Below, piece after piece: positions 35,735 through 44,412 of a stretch of DNA of 64,000 bases. Within the stretch, counting starts at the first letter, position 1, and every line of letters starts with the position of its first letter. Source of the stretch: Sphingobacteriaceae bacterium (lineage in GTDB: Bacteria; Bacteroidota; Bacteroidia; B-17B0; Aurantibacillaceae). The stretch lies in NCBI GenBank assembly GCA_002319075.1, contig NVQB01000001.1, positions 682,001 through 746,000 of the forward strand, in the 5' to 3' direction. The translations under genes and the position numbers were made by a program. The notes under the pieces were generated by a model. It made no database searches and was not told the DNA's origin. It saw nothing but the letters and a program-made list of their open reading frames with translations.

Positions 35735-36047
35735 TAAAAAAGCTTTCTTGTATTGGTTCTTCTGGCTAACAGCTTTAAACATTGAGTGCCCCTACTAAAT
35801 TCTCCCTGATAAATAGTCTCCAAAAGGATAGCCAGAATCTTATCTGACCTCGGAACTTATGAACTTCCCGGTTCAAAATGACCTATAAGTGTCCCATTAA
35901 TAATTTGACAAGAATTAATAAAAGAGACAAGTAGTAAATTTGGTTTAGGTTATCAAATTCTTATAAAACATATTATTACTGTGCTATTTTTACTATCTGT
36001 GCAGTTTTTAATTATCTTTGGCCTCGAAAAATTTTAACCCCAAACAA
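35735..36047 (+). promoter_or_regulatory. Intergenic region before the 871-aa T9SS cargo gene
   Basis: This 313-bp gap holds no gene. Near the end a TATCTTTG element at 36013-36020 matches TAnnTTTG, 27 bases before the ATG at 36048. No clear terminator for the CFA gene is seen. Confidence 0.5.
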
Positions 36048-38663
36048 ATGAAAAAACTTTTACTATTTCTTGCATTTGGCACTTATTTAAAGTGCGAAAG
36101 CCAAATTACAGCGAGCTCCACTTTAGTATGTGATGGACAAAGTGTAACTCTTGTGGCACCGCCCACCCGCCTAAACACAACATTGGCTGGCGGCAATAAC
36201 CACAGAGGTAACATGTTTAACCTCGTTGCAATTAATACCCTCACAATAACCAGTTTTGACGCGCATCCGCAAGGCAATACCACTATCGAAATATATTACA
36301 AAGCGGGAACTTACTCTGGTTTTGAAAATGCTTCAACGTCCTGGACATTAGTTGGAAGTGCGGCAGTTACAGCGCAACCTTTTGGGAATTTAACTCCCGT
36401 ACCTGTTGCTATAAACGTAGTAATACCTGCAGGTCAAACCTATGCGTTTTACGTTACTTCTAATAACACAGCGGTTGCGCTCAACTATAGTAATGGCACC
36501 ACGGCTGGTTCAGTTTATTCTTCAGATGCTAATCTTCAGTTCATAGAAGGTATAGGCCTTGAATATCCTTTCACCGGGTCACCATTTTCGCCGCGTGTGT
36601 GGAACGGCCGGATAAATTATAACGCTTCGTCTACCACTTATACATGGAGTAACGGTGCATCTACATATTCAACATCCGTGTCACCAAGTATTACTACAAC
36701 TTACTCGGTTGCTGTGAATAGCGCTACTAATACAAGTTCAATTTCTATTTCCGTGAATCCGTCGCCAACAGTCTCAATAAATAATGGAACAATTTGCAGT
36801 GGCAATTCATTTTCAATAATTCCGTCGGGAGCTGATACATACACGATTCAGGGAGGAAACTCAAATGTTAGTCCTCTATCTAACTCCACTTATACCGTGA
36901 AAGGAACGGCTAGCAACGGTTGTTTGAGTATAAATACCGCCACTCTTAATTTAACTGTTAACACAACGCCAACGGTAAGCGTGAATGATGGAACAATTTG
37001 TTCGGGCAACTCATTTTCTATAATTCCATCAGGCGCCAGTACTTATACGATTGAGGGGGGAAATACGAACGTGAGTCCATTAGTTAACTCGACTTTTACT
37101 GTGAATGGCACAGCTTCTAACGGTTGTGTGAGTGCAAATACTGCTACTTTAAATTTAACTGTTAATACAACTCCAACAGTTAGCGTTAATAACGGAACAA
37201 TTTGCTCAGGCAATTCTTTCTCTATAATTCCATCAGGTGCCAATACTTATACCATTGAAGGGGGAAATACAAACGTGAGCCCGTTAATTAGCTCAACTTA
37301 TACCGTTAGTGGAACAGCTGCAAACGGGTGTGTGAGTGCAAATACAGCCACCGCTAATTTAACCGTAAACACAACACCAACCGTTAGTGTTAATAGCGGA
37401 ACAATTTGCTCCGGCAACTCTTTCACTATACTTCCATCAGGTGCCAGTACGTATACTATAGATGGCGGAAGCACAACTGTAAGTCCGTTAATTAATTCAA
37501 GTTTCACTGTAAATGGTACCGCGTCTAACGGTTGTGTGAGTGCAAATACAGCTACTTCAAATGTAACTGTGAATACCACCCCTACTGTAAGTGTTACTGA
37601 TGGAACAATATGCTCTGGTAATTCTTTCTCAATAGTTCCATCAGGAGCCGATACGTATACCATTGAGGGAGGAAGTTCAACTGTTAGCCCGGTTATAAAT
37701 TCAACTTACACGGTGAATGGAACGGCTACTAATGGCTGCTTAAGTGCCAATGTAGCAACACTTTCATTAACTGTAAACACAACGCCAACCCTTACTGTAA
37801 ATAGTGGTTTAATCTGTACCGGTCAATCCTTCACAATCATAGCAAGCGGAGCAGACACTTTTACATTTAGCAGCGGATCAAACATTGTTTCTCCAGCTGT
37901 TACAAGTGTATTTTCTGTTACCGGAACAAGTTCTTTAGGTTGCATTGCAGCTAATACTGCCATTAGCACCGTAACTGTTGTGACAAACCCAACCATCACC
38001 GTAAATAGCGGTGCTATATGTGCAGGTGGCGTATTTGTGCTGATACCGGGAGGTGCTTCAACTTACACATTCAGCAGTGGTTCTGCGTCGGTATCACCAA
38101 CAAGTAATACAACTTACAGTGTTACCGGATCAGTAGGCCCGGGTTGTATTGGCACAAATACTGCCGTAGCTACAATTACAGTAAACCCGTTACCAACACT
38201 TTCCGCCAGTAGCACTTCATCTGTTATTTGCGCTACAGAATCTGTTATTGTAACTGCAAACGGAGCGTTAACTTACACCTGGAATGCTACTACTGCCTCG
38301 TCTGTAATAACCATCTCCCCGGCAGTTACCACCTCTTATACACTGGCTGCAACAGATGCTAATGGATGTCAAAACACTCTACTGTTTACACAAGATGTAA
38401 GCGAGTGTACAGGTGTTACACAACAAGCAAAAGCCCCTTTAACGATTAGTATTTTTCCTAATCCTGGTAACGGCATTTATTCTGTAAACTCAGAAACCAC
38501 ATTACTTGTTTCAGTTTATGACGCCCTGGGTAAAATGGTGTTGAGCGAAAAATTATCTGAAGGAAAACAACAAATAGATTTATCCGCCTTTAAGAATGGC
38601 TTTTACATTTTGAAAGCAGAAGCCGGCAATGGCTCGAAAACTTTTAAGTTAATTAAAGAATAA
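36048..38663 (+). CDS. T9SS type A sorting-domain surface protein with tandem Cys-paired repeats
   Basis: An 871-residue exported protein. The signal peptide ends at about residue 20. A beta-sandwich region at about 30-190 is followed by tandem 68-residue Ig-like repeats with two Cys each (TIC...NGC): seven units of exactly 204 bp and one diverged unit. After SECTG comes the T9SS C-terminal domain, starting at IFPNPGNG and ending in KLIKE. It would be secreted by T9SS and surface-anchored. The repeats suggest an adhesin or spacer. The ATG at 36048 is chosen over an upstream TTG because the signal peptide starts there. Confidence 0.88.
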   Translation: MKKLLLFLAFGTYLKCESQITASSTLVCDGQSVTLVAPPTRLNTTLAGGNNHRGNMFNLVAINTLTITSFDAHPQGNTTIEIYYKAGTYSGFENASTSWTLVGSAAVTAQPFGNLTPVPVAINVVIPAGQTYAFYVTSNNTAVALNYSNGTTAGSVYSSDANLQFIEGIGLEYPFTGSPFSPRVWNGRINYNASSTTYTWSNGASTYSTSVSPSITTTYSVAVNSATNTSSISISVNPSPTVSINNGTICSGNSFSIIPSGADTYTIQGGNSNVSPLSNSTYTVKGTASNGCLSINTATLNLTVNTTPTVSVNDGTICSGNSFSIIPSGASTYTIEGGNTNVSPLVNSTFTVNGTASNGCVSANTATLNLTVNTTPTVSVNNGTICSGNSFSIIPSGANTYTIEGGNTNVSPLISSTYTVSGTAANGCVSANTATANLTVNTTPTVSVNSGTICSGNSFTILPSGASTYTIDGGSTTVSPLINSSFTVNGTASNGCVSANTATSNVTVNTTPTVSVTDGTICSGNSFSIVPSGADTYTIEGGSSTVSPVINSTYTVNGTATNGCLSANVATLSLTVNTTPTLTVNSGLICTGQSFTIIASGADTFTFSSGSNIVSPAVTSVFSVTGTSSLGCIAANTAISTVTVVTNPTITVNSGAICAGGVFVLIPGGASTYTFSSGSASVSPTSNTTYSVTGSVGPGCIGTNTAVATITVNPLPTLSASSTSSVICATESVIVTANGALTYTWNATTASSVITISPAVTTSYTLAATDANGCQNTLLFTQDVSECTGVTQQAKAPLTISIFPNPGNGIYSVNSETTLLVSVYDALGKMVLSEKLSEGKQQIDLSAFKNGFYILKAEAGNGSKTFKLIKE
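36756..38183 (+). repeat. Seven in-frame 204-bp tandem repeats
   Basis: Each unit is exactly 204 bp (68 codons), starting with an N-T-T-P-T-like motif and containing TICSGNSF and NGC. Units 1-5 are close to identical in protein, units 6 and 7 more diverged. An eighth, diverged unit begins at 38184. The exact length with no indels points to recent unequal recombination or slippage. Confidence 0.9.
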
Positions 38664-38829: not shown

Positions 38830-40170
38830 CTAAGTTAATTTTGTTTCTTTAAATCTGGTAAAGATAATTGCGGCCAGGCAACAAAGCACAAAGCCCATAA
38901 TTCCGTTTAGGCGAATACCAAAATCATTTCCTACATCTTTTCCATAAATTAAAAACATAGCGAATAATGCAATTCCAAAAGTTTGTGCAATCTTCACAAA
39001 GAAATAGCGCACAGCAAAATAGATTGCTTCTTTATTCTCTTTAGTTTCGAGACTATCCTTTTCAATAATTTCAGCAAGAATAGCATTTGGCAATATGTTT
39101 AAAGAGGCAAGTGGGATAGCTGCAAACGTAATGAGGGAGTAAATTTGAAGTAATGGAGAAATCTGCATTTTACCCAGAAAAAAAATTCCTAAAAAAACGA
39201 AGGACAATAAAGCCAAAGAAACTACTACAATAACTTTCTTACCGGTTTTTTTTGCGAGGTAATTCACGATAGGATAAAAAATAAAAGACACCAAAACCAT
39301 TGTTATCATTAATTTATTTCCAACGTTTTCTTTCAGAGGCAAAAGCACTGTAACAAAATACATAAGTCCGGAGGTGATAATAGTGACTGCAATAAAATAA
39401 GAGAAGTCTGCGACTATAAACAAAAGAAAATTTTTGTTTTTTAAGGTTTGAAAAAGCGCTTGTTTCAAAGGTACGGCGCTAGGAACACTTACCGAATACT
39501 TTTTTTCATCGATCGACAGCACCGTTACCAACATACAGATTGCGGCCAAAAGCACCATAAAAACAACGCTTAACTGCAAAGCAGAAATTCGTGAAGCAAC
39601 TGCAAAAGAACTCTGTAAAAAATCAGTGAGGTTAAAAACATTGGAGGACACCCCTATTCCCATTACATAACCAATAGACTGAAAAGTAGACATCCGCACT
39701 TTACTTTCGGCAGTGGGCGCCAGTTCAGGAAGCAACGCGTTGTACGGAATAATATATGTTGTAGAAGAAACATAAAAACCGATAAGACATATCACTAACC
39801 AGAAAATATTCAGACCACTTTCTTCTTGCTTTAAGGGATAAAAAATAAGAAAACAAAAAACCATAGAAGGAAGAATTGCTAATTTCATCATTGGGATTCT
39901 TCTTCCCTTTGGATTCTTACTACTGTCGCTCACCTGAGCGATAAAAGGATCGACAATGGCATCTACCAACCTTCCACTGGCTGTAATTAAGGCAATCACA
40001 TTAAAAAAGCCGAAAATTATTGCTTGCGTAATTAATTTTGGCAGTCCGCTTGTTTCGGGAGGAAGGTATAAATAAACAAGGATTACACTAATGAGATTGA
40101 TCATAATGCTCCAGCCCATCATGCCGAAACCATAGGAAATTTGTTTTTTAAAAGGAAGTGCTGCCTGCAT
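38830..40170 (-). CDS. MFS transporter of the GPH (MelB-like) sugar:cation symporter family
   Basis: A 446-residue membrane protein with about 12 helices. The N-terminus KKQISYGFGMMGWSIM, ASGRLVDAIVDPFIAQVSDSSKNPKGRR (parts quoted), and a central split match the GPH family, whose Asp in the ...DPFIA... segment helps bind the coupling cation. Sugar or glycoside import is the family role; the exact substrate is unknown. The start lies 1 bp from the stop of the SpoIIE fusion gene upstream, so the two are probably co-transcribed. Confidence 0.85.
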   Translation of the reverse strand: MQAALPFKKQISYGFGMMGWSIMINLISVILVYLYLPPETSGLPKLITQAIIFGFFNVIALITASGRLVDAIVDPFIAQVSDSSKNPKGRRIPMMKLAILPSMVFCFLIFYPLKQEESGLNIFWLVICLIGFYVSSTTYIIPYNALLPELAPTAESKVRMSTFQSIGYVMGIGVSSNVFNLTDFLQSSFAVASRISALQLSVVFMVLLAAICMLVTVLSIDEKKYSVSVPSAVPLKQALFQTLKNKNFLLFIVADFSYFIAVTIITSGLMYFVTVLLPLKENVGNKLMITMVLVSFIFYPIVNYLAKKTGKKVIVVVSLALLSFVFLGIFFLGKMQISPLLQIYSLITFAAIPLASLNILPNAILAEIIEKDSLETKENKEAIYFAVRYFFVKIAQTFGIALFAMFLIYGKDVGNDFGIRLNGIMGFVLCCLAAIIFTRFKETKLT

Positions 40171-40171
40171 A

Positions 40172-42487
40172 TTAAATCTCTATTCCTATTACTAAAACAT
40201 CGTCTATCTGCGCAGAACTACCTTTCCAGTCCTCAAAGGTTTTTTCAAGTATCCTTCCTTGTTCTTCCATAGAAGTTGATTTCATTGACAATAAAATTTC
40301 TTTAAAATTTTTATACATAAACTTCTTTTGATGCTCGCCTCCAAACTGATCAGCAAAGCCATCTGTAAATAAATAAATCTTATCCCCTTTTTTTATTTCG
40401 ATGCGCTGATTTGTAAAGGGTGCAAGTGCCGCTTCGGGAGAGGCTGTAATAGGTTGTTTATTGGCCTTCAGAATAATAATTTCTTCGCCCCTTATTATGT
40501 ATACCGGATTGTTTGCACCTGCATATTCCATCAACATTCCTTTCCTATCGATGCAGCACAAAGCAATGTCCATTCCGTCTCTGATCGGCGTATCTCCTTC
40601 ATTTTTATTAAACTTCTTTTTTAGTTCTGTATTTACATAATCTAATGCGTTTGCCGGAGTGGGAATTGAAACCTGTGTTAGCGTTTGATTTAATAAAGTA
40701 TTTGCAATAATACTCATAAAGGCTCCAGGCACTCCATGCCCGGTGCAATCTACCGCTGCTACCACCAGAATTTCTGTTCCTGCAATGTAATTATCTCCCG
40801 CTTCATTCTGATAGTCGTACTTAATAGTATAATTACTAAACCAATAAAAATCGCCACTTACAACATCCCGCGGTTTGAATAAAATAAAAGATTCCGGAGC
40901 GAGTATTTTCAATTTTTCCTTATCCACAAAAACAGAACGTTGAATTCTTTTAGAATATTCAATACTATCGCTGATGTCTTTACTCTTTTCGTCGATTAAT
41001 TTTCTTTGGTTTGTTATCTCCTGCTGGAGTTTTAACCGCTCGCGGATATCGCGCGCGTAAATAACAATGGCCGGTCGACCGGAGAAAGGAGCTACTTTGG
41101 CAGAACACTCTACCGGTATAATTTCCCTGGCTTTTGTAACAAAAGGAATATCGGTGTAAATTAAACCACCTTTTTCCCAAACGTCGGCTACTATTTGCGA
41201 ACTCTTATTCAAAAATTCTTGAGGATGAAGATCAAACAAAGAAAGCTGCAACAGTTCCGATGTCTCATAGCCAAGTAATTTAGCAGCACTAGGATTGGTT
41301 TGATGAATTTTTCCGTCTACAATATCAATTACGATCATGGCGTCGTTTGCCTGGTCGATAATGCTCTGATAATTATTTAGTTCTTTTTGCAAAGCTGCTA
41401 TTTTAATTTCCTGAGCATCTGACTTTTGTCCAGGTAAACTAGTTTTTAAAGCAGCGAAGCCCTCTTTTTCAAGTGGCATATTTTTTTTACTTTCTTCATA
41501 TAAACTATCAAGTTGATCGACCATTGGAAATATCAAAGACGGATTTAAAAACTCACCTACTTTATCAGGCCTTGATACATACCGCACAACTCCGCTTTTA
41601 TCAATGAGAAATGACGCCGGTAAAGGAATTCCCTCCTTGTAAGAATCTGCAAATTTATTATCGTATTCTTTTAATTGCACACCGTAAATCATAGCGGTGC
41701 GTTGACCTTCGTCGGAAAGAACTTTAAAATCGACCCCTAATTTTTCGACCATGGCCCGGTTCACTCCCACCGGATCAGGGCCAATGGCAATAACTAATAC
41801 GTTTTTACTTTTAAATTTATCATTGTTTTTTTCGTAGGTTCTGAGCATCATGTGACAACCCGGACACCAATCGCCACGTACAAAAATAAGGAGCACATGC
41901 CTCTCGTTTTTATAGTCTGAAAGTTTTGTAATAGTTCCATTTTGATCGGGTAGTTCAAAATCGTTGGCCAGTTTTCCAATTTGAATACGATAACCGAGAA
42001 GCGAATTTTTAAGAAGCTGGTTTTTATCTTTTAGCGTTCCCAAGCAAAAAACTGCGCCGAACACGTAAAGGGGCAAAGGCAGAAGATACGCTTGCCAATC
42101 GTGATGATAAAGAAGATTGGAACTCAGGAAAAGTAAAAATGATGTCAGCAAAAAAACCGGCTCAAACCACGAATACAGGGTGTATGAAAAAACCGGGAAG
42201 AATGCAATACGCGCAACAGTTACCGCCGCGAGCAATGCCATAGAGATAACCGTAAGCGGAAAATTTTGATTCGGAAAATCAATCGCCAATCCCAACAAAC
42301 AGCAAGCAATAAAAATTGTAATAAACTGAAATTTACTCGTGTGTGAGGATAACTCTTTAAGCGCCATAAAAAATGCACACACACAAAGAAGAGCGCTGAT
42401 TAAAAAGAATTCCAAAATAAGACTGAGAACAGCAAACAGGCAAAACAGTGCTGCAAGGCTGGTAGACTTATGAACTTTACCGGTCAT
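40172..42487 (-). CDS. Membrane-peroxiredoxin-PAS-SpoIIE phosphatase fusion protein
   Basis: A 771-residue multi-domain protein (ATG at 42487; a longer TTG start adds 8 residues). It begins with about six membrane helices (residues 10-155). An AhpC/TSA-type thioredoxin-fold domain follows at about 175-340 with intact CPGC (Cys208, Cys211). A PAS domain lies at about 370-490 (IIDQANDAMIVIDIVDG), then a short coiled coil, then a SpoIIE/PP2C phosphatase domain at about 545-771 with FKPRDVVSGDFYWF, DCTGHGVPGAF and FTDGFADQFGG. The phosphatase metal-binding Asp residues are present. It may couple redox or small-molecule sensing to dephosphorylation of an anti-sigma antagonist or similar target. 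No STAS or RsbW-type partner is encoded nearby. Confidence 0.85.
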   Translation of the reverse strand: MTGKVHKSTSLAALFCLFAVLSLILEFFLISALLCVCAFFMALKELSSHTSKFQFITIFIACCLLGLAIDFPNQNFPLTVISMALLAAVTVARIAFFPVFSYTLYSWFEPVFLLTSFLLFLSSNLLYHHDWQAYLLPLPLYVFGAVFCLGTLKDKNQLLKNSLLGYRIQIGKLANDFELPDQNGTITKLSDYKNERHVLLIFVRGDWCPGCHMMLRTYEKNNDKFKSKNVLVIAIGPDPVGVNRAMVEKLGVDFKVLSDEGQRTAMIYGVQLKEYDNKFADSYKEGIPLPASFLIDKSGVVRYVSRPDKVGEFLNPSLIFPMVDQLDSLYEESKKNMPLEKEGFAALKTSLPGQKSDAQEIKIAALQKELNNYQSIIDQANDAMIVIDIVDGKIHQTNPSAAKLLGYETSELLQLSLFDLHPQEFLNKSSQIVADVWEKGGLIYTDIPFVTKAREIIPVECSAKVAPFSGRPAIVIYARDIRERLKLQQEITNQRKLIDEKSKDISDSIEYSKRIQRSVFVDKEKLKILAPESFILFKPRDVVSGDFYWFSNYTIKYDYQNEAGDNYIAGTEILVVAAVDCTGHGVPGAFMSIIANTLLNQTLTQVSIPTPANALDYVNTELKKKFNKNEGDTPIRDGMDIALCCIDRKGMLMEYAGANNPVYIIRGEEIIILKANKQPITASPEAALAPFTNQRIEIKKGDKIYLFTDGFADQFGGEHQKKFMYKNFKEILLSMKSTSMEEQGRILEKTFEDWKGSSAQIDDVLVIGIEI

Positions 42488-42547
42488 TAAACCCAAATAT
42501 AAGAAAATCAAGTCAATTCGTATTTTCGAAAAACGTCATCCAATAAA

Positions 42548-42578
42548 TAACCCCGCTTCTTAAAAAGAAGCGGGGTTA
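42548..42578 (-). terminator. Strong hairpin terminator after the 604-aa T9SS cargo gene
   Basis: AACCCCGCTTCTT, a 3-base loop, AAGAAGCGGGGTT: a 13-bp GC-rich stem, extended by one T-A pair. On the minus strand it is followed by a T-rich tract. It separates the 604-aa gene from the SpoIIE fusion gene. Confidence 0.85.
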
Positions 42579-42597: not shown

Positions 42598-44412
42598 CTA
42601 GTGTTTAATTATGCGAACTGTTTTGGTGGTGTTATTTTGTTTGAGTGTAACAAAATAAATTCCCTGAGGCTGATCATTTAAAGAAATAGTATTTTTTCCG
42701 GCGGTTAAATTTTGGTTATAAACAATTTGTCCGATGGTATTAACAATACTTAAAATCATATCCTTTTCTGCATCCACAATTAGATCGCCGTTGGTTGGAT
42801 TCGGATATAGATTGAATTGTATGTCGGACGACGCTTTTTCAATGCTTGTGCAATCGCTAACATAAAGGAGAATACTTGCATAATCGGAACAGCCATTAAA
42901 CGAATCTGTTCCGGTAACGCCATAGAGCGCTGTAACTGTTGGTGTAATGGCAGCGGTTGAGCTTGTTGCTCCGGTACTCCATGAATAAGTGCCCGCACCA
43001 ATAGCGTTTAATACAATTGTTTGTCCCAAACAAACCAGATTACTTTGTAAGGGCGTGATAGATACTGTTGGCTTTACACCAGCAACAACAACAGTTGCTA
43101 CCAGTGTGTTTTGCGCTTTACATCCTTCTGCGCTGGCTCCCGTAACGGTATAACTTGTAGTAACAAGCGGTGATACGGTGGGACTACCACTTGAGAAGGT
43201 ATAAGAAAATGCACCTTGTGGTGAAAGAACATACGAATCTCCCCCACAAATACTGCCACTCGCAACAGATATTACAGGTAAAGAAACTACGTTGATTGTT
43301 ACCGTAGCAAAGCCAGGACAGCCTGTTAAGGGATCGGTTCCCCCCACAACTACCGTGGTGTTTGTTGCAGGTGCAATAGTGCTCGATCCGCTGGAATACG
43401 TGTAACTGGCTGCACCGGCAGGTTGAATATTAAATACACTTCCAGCGCATAAACTGCCCGAATTAACCGTGATAGTTGGAGATTGTGTAATACTAACTGT
43501 AACAATAACAGTATCTGAACAACCATCATTAGCTGCAGCACCCGTAACCGTATAGTTTGTGGTTGTAGTTGGAGTTACCACGTTTGAGCCACTTGAATAG
43601 GTATAAGAAACAGCGCCGCTTGGCACTATCGTGAAACTTTGTCCAGAACAAACACTTCCACTTGAAGCAGTTAAGGAAAGTACATTTACCGACAGTTGAA
43701 GAGAAACTGAATCTGAACATCCTGTGTTTGTATCTGTTCCACTCACCATGTAGGTCGTATTGATGGTGGGAGACACAACGGTTTGCCCCCCTTGAATGGT
43801 ATAAGTGGAAGCCCCTGATGGATTTATTGTAAACGATTGTCCCGCACAGATTGTGCCATTGCTCACGGTAATTGTTGGAAGCGGAAGTGTCGCAACAGCA
43901 ACAAAACTTGTATCCGAACAACCCGTTAGAGTGCTGGATCCAACTAAGGTATAGGTGGAATTAAGAGCAGGTGTGATGGTAACAGTACTCACAAACTGAC
44001 CAGAACTCCAGCTGTAAGTGTCCGCACCATTGGCACTGAGAGTGCTGGCGGCAGAAGTGCAAATCAAAGTATTTCCCGATACCGTTATTATAGGTAAAGC
44101 CTGCACTAAAAGTGTTTCAGTGTGAATAGCGCTTGTTCCGGAACCGTTAGTAGCTTCAAGATCGATAGAATAGGTACCTGCTGTCGGAAAAAACAATTCA
44201 GGTGCCTGAGAGTTTGATGCAAAAACTCCGTTAATGCTATATGACCAGGCCGTAGGCGCATTGGTTGAAATATCTGTTACCTGAACAGATTCCTTTGCGC
44301 AAATGGTATTCGAATTAATAGAAAAGCCAGCGACAGGCGCCTGCGCGTTTGCGCTCACACAGGTAAATAAACCTGCTAACGAAAGCAGTTTGGAAAGTAA
44401 TTTCAATTTCAT
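42598..44412 (-). CDS. T9SS type A sorting-domain protein with PKD-like and Ig-like repeats
   Basis: A 604-residue exported protein. A signal peptide ends at about residue 24 (VSANAQ). A PKD-like domain spans about 26-110 (GFSINSNTICAKESVQVTD). Six or so Ig-like units of 65-75 residues follow, each with a Cys pair (C in GTIC or SVC, and GC). A linker DCTSIEK precedes the C-terminal sorting domain (FNLYPNPTNGDL to RIIKH). It is a probable cell-surface adhesin or matrix protein. The same unit type builds the other three cargo genes in the window. Confidence 0.87.
   Translation of the reverse strand: MKLKLLSKLLSLAGLFTCVSANAQAPVAGFSINSNTICAKESVQVTDISTNAPTAWSYSINGVFASNSQAPELFFPTAGTYSIDLEATNGSGTSAIHTETLLVQALPIITVSGNTLICTSAASTLSANGADTYSWSSGQFVSTVTITPALNSTYTLVGSSTLTGCSDTSFVAVATLPLPTITVSNGTICAGQSFTINPSGASTYTIQGGQTVVSPTINTTYMVSGTDTNTGCSDSVSLQLSVNVLSLTASSGSVCSGQSFTIVPSGAVSYTYSSGSNVVTPTTTTNYTVTGAAANDGCSDTVIVTVSITQSPTITVNSGSLCAGSVFNIQPAGAASYTYSSGSSTIAPATNTTVVVGGTDPLTGCPGFATVTINVVSLPVISVASGSICGGDSYVLSPQGAFSYTFSSGSPTVSPLVTTSYTVTGASAEGCKAQNTLVATVVVAGVKPTVSITPLQSNLVCLGQTIVLNAIGAGTYSWSTGATSSTAAITPTVTALYGVTGTDSFNGCSDYASILLYVSDCTSIEKASSDIQFNLYPNPTNGDLIVDAEKDMILSIVNTIGQIVYNQNLTAGKNTISLNDQPQGIYFVTLKQNNTTKTVRIIKH

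Follow-up and report, generated by a model that had tools for sequence, protein, structure and literature searches.

What can a single bacterial protein accomplish that joins membrane helices, a peroxiredoxin-like domain with a CPGC motif, a PAS domain and a phosphatase of the SpoIIE (PP2C) type? PP2C partner-switch phosphatases govern stress responses, biofilms and development, and the signals that they receive are often unknown. Such a protein is encoded in the window, by which the whole stretch of 64,000 nucleotides of Bacteroidota DNA analysed here is meant, and the preliminary description, made from the letters alone, had read it as a redox- or membrane-state-controlled phosphatase.

The ATG at 42487 opens a minus-strand open reading frame of 771 residues (40172-42487), the start position of which is shared by most aligned homologues. 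The domain search that had been proposed for this protein returned three Pfam matches, all above the curated cut-offs: AhpC-TSA at residues 170-304 (1.6e-28), PAS at residues 372-426 (2.5e-9) and SpoIIE at residues 575-770 (2.5e-19). An AlphaFold2 model built on 42 rows has a mean pLDDT of 86 and a pTM of 0.48, and the placement of the domains is therefore uncertain. It contains six membrane helices (7-24, 28-47, 52-73, 78-95, 108-126 and 138-163), followed by the peroxiredoxin-fold domain, a helix (355-379), PAS (383-480), a long helix (482-519) and PP2C (533-770). The domain order first read from the letters, with about six membrane helices and the CPGC cysteines at positions 208 and 211, is thus confirmed within one chain, which consists of the following parts.

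40172-42487, minus strand: fused gene for 771 amino acids, with six-helix membrane domain, peroxiredoxin-fold CxxC domain, PAS and SiaA-like PP2C (open reading frame, Pfam, AlphaFold2).
41999-42469, minus strand: membrane domain, residues 7-163, six helices, predicted N-in/C-in, with near-invariant R93 and W107 (conservation, AlphaFold2).
41480-41986, minus strand: peroxiredoxin-fold (AhpC/TSA) domain, residues 168-336, predicted to be cytoplasmic (Pfam, AlphaFold2, fold comparison).
41855-41866, minus strand: CPGC active-site motif, C208-C211 (sequence, alignments).
41618-41620, minus strand: P290, the cis-proline position of the thioredoxin fold, Arg in peroxiredoxins (alignments, PDB profile match).
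41018-41383, minus strand: PAS domain, residues 369-490 (Pfam, conservation, AlphaFold2).
40931-41044, minus strand: long helix 482-519 linking PAS and PP2C (AlphaFold2).
40178-40891, minus strand: SiaA-like PP2C (SpoIIE) domain, residues 533-770, with D546, D580, D709, D763 and C581 (Pfam, alignments, fold comparison).

With L060 excluded, 15 fused relatives were compared with the window protein: mean identity is highest in the peroxiredoxin-fold domain (80%) and PAS (77%), followed by the helix (69%), PP2C (65%), the membrane part (40%) and the linker (15%).

The CPGC domain had been addressed as an AhpC/TSA domain that might reduce peroxides or act as a thiol switch, with the reservation that it could lack a folded TSA domain altogether. 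The latter is not the case, as this domain, modelled on its own, resembles Bcp1 (Z 18.4, rmsd 2.6 over 149) and AhpE (Z 17.0, rmsd 2.7 over 143); the Z-score comparisons of this domain and of PP2C re-examine the list returned by Foldseek, and their rankings hold among the structures on that list. Peroxiredoxins carry a cxxC motif whose first position is mostly Thr, and Arg where thioredoxins have the cis-Pro (available text of PMC2757866). In an alignment to the peroxiredoxin 2ywn, C211 falls on the peroxidatic Cys and C208 on the Thr, so that the Thr (or Ser) expected ahead of the peroxidatic Cys in a TxxC motif is replaced by Cys, and the position of the Arg is held by P290. The fold is that of a peroxiredoxin by both the Pfam match and the two structural matches, and the combination of CxxC with Pro at the cis-Pro position is that of thioredoxin and ResA; the best PDB match of the sequence profile of the domain is indeed ResA (4nmu, 3.3e-17), covering WCxxC and the PLPxSFLID loop. 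With Cys in the place of the catalytic Thr and Pro in that of the catalytic Arg on a peroxiredoxin fold, the domain is therefore, as judged from aligned residues, a peroxiredoxin fold with a thioredoxin/ResA-type active site, and the identity of a canonical, peroxide-reducing AhpC/TSA enzyme is rejected on the same two positions. The motif is strongly maintained: all 36 strong relatives that were retrieved without it carry CxxC (hand-picked at E <= 6e-38, the window's own copy coming on top; in one of them the contig stops beyond the motif and truncates the gene). C208, C211 and P290 each occur in 76 of 76 tree rows, from a set of 78 loci that a scan with two peptide patterns yielded; as each pattern contains one of the two cysteines, their conservation is partly imposed in this set. 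The two sets overlap in genomes.

On which side of the membrane would such an active site work? The mean number of Lys and Arg over 76 rows is 1.5, 1.13, 1.0 and 3.58 in the segments predicted to lie inside and 0.3 and 0.34 in two predicted to lie outside (the short first loop not counted), which is consistent with the predicted N-in/C-in orientation of the membrane domain. The CxxC domain is predicted to be cytoplasmic because the AlphaFold2 model has no membrane helix after residue 165 and PAS-PP2C needs the cytoplasm to act. Within the otherwise variable membrane domain, R93 is kept in 75 of 76 rows and W107 in 73 of 76, and these two residues speak for a reading in which the membrane part is the sensor, of quinone, lipid or membrane energy, and the CxxC domain a thiol relay to PAS-PP2C. 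We consider this unlikely, as the membrane domain has the lowest identity of all parts but the linker and holds, over the 76 rows, no conserved cysteine for electron exchange.

Whether the two halves of the protein belong together can be judged from their distribution. A search of 150 genomes with the front half (residues 1-365) gave a strong match (E <= 6e-38, the next best at 1e-18) in 31, the window's included, of which 18 encode the fused form and 11 a front half of about 325 amino acids next to a PAS-SpoIIE protein of about 440, on the same strand and within 11 nt or overlapping; the front half stands alone in one genome (G128), and the locus is cut by a contig end in another (G038). The pattern scan, with one genome per GTDB species, yielded the 78 loci mentioned above, 77 of them from records titled as metagenome-assembled genomes; all loci carry titles of Bacteroidota or of groups within, except L155 ('bacterium') and L190 (Roseivivax, a weak match). 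Open reading frames were taken from a simple script, which called 76 front-half genes and none in L155, L157, L187, L189 and L190 (a PAS-SpoIIE frame lies at the end of the match in L157). Seventeen of the 76 are fused, 48 lie beside a SpoIIE gene, ten do not and one is at a contig edge, where any gene on the same strand that BLAST matches to the window's SpoIIE domain counts as a neighbour, with or without PAS. The SpoIIE gene follows directly downstream in 44 of the 48, at gaps of 25 nt or less in 40 of these and often overlapping; it follows a tandem copy in two and is directly upstream in two. Five of the ten front-half genes without such a neighbour (L163, L166, L176, L177, L181) share an assembly prefix with a fused or paired locus. 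On a 76-row tree, made with a quick method whose output flags a junction of long branches where the second fused group lies, the fused label needs five changes, and strongly supported branches force at least two between fused and not fused; the short rows L174 and L188 are left out, and L168 and L178 are labelled as without neighbour though a PAS-SpoIIE gene is upstream. The domain order that was to be sought in other Bacteroidota thus recurs there, and the membrane-CxxC half and the PAS-phosphatase half are a conserved unit in fused and split forms.

Three loci of these sets deserve mention in their own right. A CAGC front-half gene at L153:3245-5323 is followed by a PP2C-like protein without DCTGHG, PAS or a Pfam match, a possible pseudophosphatase; at L176:5073-6972 a front-half gene without phosphatase neighbour lies 58 nt after a gene for a sigma-70-type factor (regions 1.2 to 4); and the front-half copy of L189 / L193 (KatS3mg026), with several in-frame stops, is probably decayed.

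The phosphatase is not the only output with which the front half is associated. In L155 (JAJYGY010000254.1, 4058-6962) two tandem front-half genes precede a gene for PAS, 54% identical to the window PAS, and, truncated where the contig stops, a domain of class III cyclases (PF00211, 8.8e-11). This is a single case: when 296 genomes from across the phylum were searched with PAS alone, the window's own was the only one retrieved at E <= 1e-20, without any further output, and among 78 relatives of the cyclase-bearing genome no front-half match was found at E <= 1e-25.

The same data bear on a second reading: the front half would act as a thiol oxidoreductase in its own right, on substrates in the cytoplasm, and would share its regulation with a PAS phosphatase that responds to a different signal. 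The active-site residues of thioredoxin type would suit an enzyme, as would the ten of 76 copies without phosphatase neighbour and the locus L063, where three tandem front-half genes precede one PAS-SpoIIE gene. Single-chain fusions at no fewer than two places of the tree, the position of the peroxiredoxin-fold and PAS domains as the best conserved of the protein and the occurrence of the module ahead of a cyclase argue against mere co-regulation, and we hold this reading to be distinctly unlikely.

As for the output of the window protein, D546, D580, D709 and D763, the metal ligands in this family, are present as previously stated and near-invariant (64/64, 63/64, 63/64 and 62/63 rows). Among the structures listed by Foldseek, the PP2C domain is closest to that of SiaA (6k4e, Z 31.7, rmsd 1.9 over 244 residues), followed by 3ke6, the RsbU domain of Rv1364c (Z 22.9). 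C581, counted by hand, is the equivalent of SiaA C475, which contacts a metal via its backbone carbonyl (available text of PMC7647112). The domain accordingly has the metal aspartates and the C475 position of SiaA, and scores 175.4 bits against the 700-bit cut-off of the NCBIfam SiaA equivalog. The window's genome holds SpoIIE-domain matches at 20 places (E <= 1.3e-22, the window gene included), eight matches to SiaC (PF09345), whose homologues there carry an NT(S/A)S stretch resembling the T68 site, and seven to DUF6272 (PF19788), presumably the SiaB family. The resemblance of the phosphatase to SiaA and the eight SiaC matches of the genome would make a SiaC-type protein the likeliest substrate.

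Neither siaB nor siaC was found near the window gene in the SiaC and DUF6272 profile searches of the genome, in which three other phosphatases (L010, L015, L016) are adjoined by such matches; in a PP2C tree, poorly resolved, the window gene does not group with the SiaBC-linked phosphatases. SiaC is present in all 31 genomes with a strong front-half match and in 95 of 119 others (Fisher p 0.004, confounded by shared ancestry). SiaB-SiaC genes occur in the neighbourhood of relatives' loci in three genomes (G057, G091, G137): in G057 upstream of the module with two metabolic genes in between, and in G137 directly downstream, with a SiaB-family kinase over its cut-off (172.8 bits) and a SiaC-like gene under the 150-bit equivalog cut-off (99.5 bits). 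As another SpoIIE gene is near in all three (L052_13, L065_11, L066_15), to which SiaBC may belong, this adjacency is only suggestive of a link to the module. In addition, three frames of 371-393 codons (L102, L103 and L105; G000:C1:4393002, 4357189 and 5337247) carry SiaC toward the C-terminus, after an N-terminal part without identity.

SpoIIE phosphatases act, as a general rule, on STAS proteins, and the preliminary description had expected an anti-sigma antagonist as the substrate. In line with this, the phosphatase could act on a STAS protein under an RsbW-like kinase, with a sigma factor as output in place of the SiaC pathway; the genome does encode an RsbW-like frame of 135 codons (3.5e-28, the one strong match among 17 to HATPase_c_2) as well as STAS matches in two frames, one of 116 codons (1.6e-9) and one of 360 (2.0e-4). 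The closer resemblance of PP2C to SiaA than to RsbU-type structures, and the ratio of 20 SpoIIE-type places and eight SiaC matches to one RsbW-like frame and two STAS matches, make a classical STAS/RsbV substrate improbable and a SiaC-type one the likelier choice.

Finally, a redox-inert spacer or dimerisation block, for which the missing peroxidase residues could be cited, is very improbable in a domain that keeps CxxC in every motif-free relative and is the best conserved of the fused set.

The genes around the module offer less. Two features were noted at its ends.

38830-40170, minus strand: GPH/MFS_2 transporter gene, neighbour of the 771-residue gene, conserved in one clade only (Pfam MFS_2).
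42494-42501, minus strand: TATATTTG, a Bacteroidota -7-like element 6 nt before the ATG (match to TAnnTTTG).

The transporter gene starts 1 nt after the stop codon of the module gene and had been suggested as a functional partner. It is the next gene in eight of 17 fused loci besides the window's and in one of 11 split loci, with some loci truncated where their contig stops, and its adjacency is one synteny block because the same eight loci also carry the window's dnaK gene; as a partner, the transporter was therefore dropped. TAnnTTTG is the -7 element of Bacteroidota, and TATATTTG at 6 nt from the ATG would leave at most a very short 5' leader. By eye, a GC-rich hairpin can be made out around 42549-42577 (within 42488-42577); the terminator scan does not list it, and Rfam gave no match at gathering score in the window. 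Module and transporter are flanked by two large repetitive genes (36018-38663 and 42598-44412), each encoding a C-terminal sorting domain of T9SS type A. In relatives, canonical TxxC peroxiredoxins, AhpC-type with a 1-cysPrx_C domain and/or of Bcp size, lie together with a methyltransferase within four genes of split loci in five genomes (L063, L064, L065, L066, L131; the set comprises 113 loci with duplicates counted), a hint of oxidative stress. The window's own genome has its equivalent pair elsewhere (L084). Near the Bcp-size peroxiredoxin and the triple front-half genes of L063, a protein with an aquaporin-like NPA stretch is encoded at 2362-2985.

Taken together, the reading that we favour, with chances that seem to us just short of even, is a fused two-part module in which a membrane-bound, cytoplasmic CxxC redox input with PAS drives a SiaA-like PP2C acting on a SiaC-type switch. 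In its first part, a thioredoxin-like domain with the fold of a peroxiredoxin would be anchored in the membrane and face the cytoplasm; its second part would be a PAS domain joined by a long helix to the phosphatase. Most likely, the CxxC pair would alternate between its dithiol and disulfide states by exchange with a redox partner in the cytoplasm or close to the membrane, and it would hand its redox state to the PAS dimer, whereupon the helix between PAS and PP2C would switch the phosphatase on or off; the output would most likely set the phosphorylation of a SiaC-type switch protein, which a SiaB-type kinase would phosphorylate. The CxxC protein would take the place of RsbQ as partner of PAS, to which it is fused in the window gene. 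The architecture, the residues of the active site, the predicted topology, the genetic linkage between the halves and the SiaB/SiaC matches of the genome are observed, whereas redox sensing as such, the activating redox state, direct contact between the halves, the route through PAS and helix, the substrate and the place of RsbQ are what we infer in this model. A relay of cysteines from CxxC to C461 of PAS or C581 of PP2C was considered and rejected, as no more than 53 of 65 rows have Cys at position 461 and C581 is common to most other SpoIIE-type phosphatases of the genome. A wider formulation is tenable, and somewhat more probably wrong than right: a bipartite membrane CxxC and PAS module could pass thiol-redox signals to exchangeable outputs, mostly SiaA-like PP2C with SiaB/SiaC and at least once a class III cyclase, with the window gene as the single-chain version. 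A redox- or membrane-controlled phosphatase, as originally proposed, is still the best inference, and the adjacency, the fused and split forms and the conserved cysteines lend it support; its peroxide-enzyme and GPH-partner components were given up, and a SiaC-type substrate is likelier than a STAS protein.

The input of the module is a textbook redox active site that is open to mutation, the existence of one-chain and two-gene forms makes binding of the halves testable, and candidate substrates of the phosphatase can be listed within the same genome.

How does this module compare with known systems? The preliminary description knew of no standard system with the same domain order. Fusions of Prx to PP2C_SIG with a conserved Cys, suggested to be redox-active, were however already reported in 2008 from Global Ocean Sampling data, along with 159 such phosphatase sequences of Microscilla marina (available text of PMC2398784). 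They share with the window protein a Prx domain and a PP2C with conserved Cys in one chain; compared by text description, no membrane helices, PAS, two-gene pairs or thioredoxin-type site are named there. If the Cys singled out then is that of DCTGHG, it is the equivalent of SiaA C475 with its backbone contact to the metal. In a literature search of titles and openings of abstracts, with subscription papers and preprints outside, only PMC2398784 bears on the architecture; the full membrane/PAS arrangement was not found described, and the membrane-anchored two-gene module with thioredoxin-type site and second output, for which no earlier description was found, seems little-described.

Thiol-disulfide oxidoreductases of the ResA/TlpA type share WCxxC and the PLPxSFLID loop with the window domain, which differs in its predicted cytoplasmic location and in a model fold closest, among the structures listed by Foldseek, to Bcp1 and AhpE; ResA faces outward from a single anchor. 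SiaA of Pseudomonas aeruginosa resembles the window PP2C in sequence, fold and the Cys beside the metal Asp, whereas, in the available text of PMC7647112, it crosses the membrane twice, carries HAMP and is part of siaABCD, and the window input consists of the Prx-fold domain and PAS without siaBC near.

Switching of PP2C by a helix has been proposed for RsbQ-RsbP and shown for RsbT-RsbU. In RsbU, and as a prediction also in other proteins, PP2C dimers receive their signals through helical linkers (available text of PMC12143880). In RsbQ-RsbP of Bacillus subtilis, a partner gene and PAS form a bipartite input for several outputs, and modules of this type are also coupled to a histidine kinase and a diguanylate cyclase (available text of PMC3183031). 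The window gene has the order PAS, helix, PP2C of RsbP; its neighbours are the GPH transporter and a T9SS-sorted protein and not an RsbQ alpha/beta hydrolase. The window family likewise pairs a PAS-coiled coil-PP2C gene with a partner that is encoded separately next to it, and it has more than one output, here a nucleotide cyclase once, but the partner is a six-helix membrane protein with a thioredoxin-type CxxC, often in one chain with PAS, and RsbQ is an alpha/beta hydrolase. By this analogy, RsbQ-RsbP is the closest working model for the module of the window.
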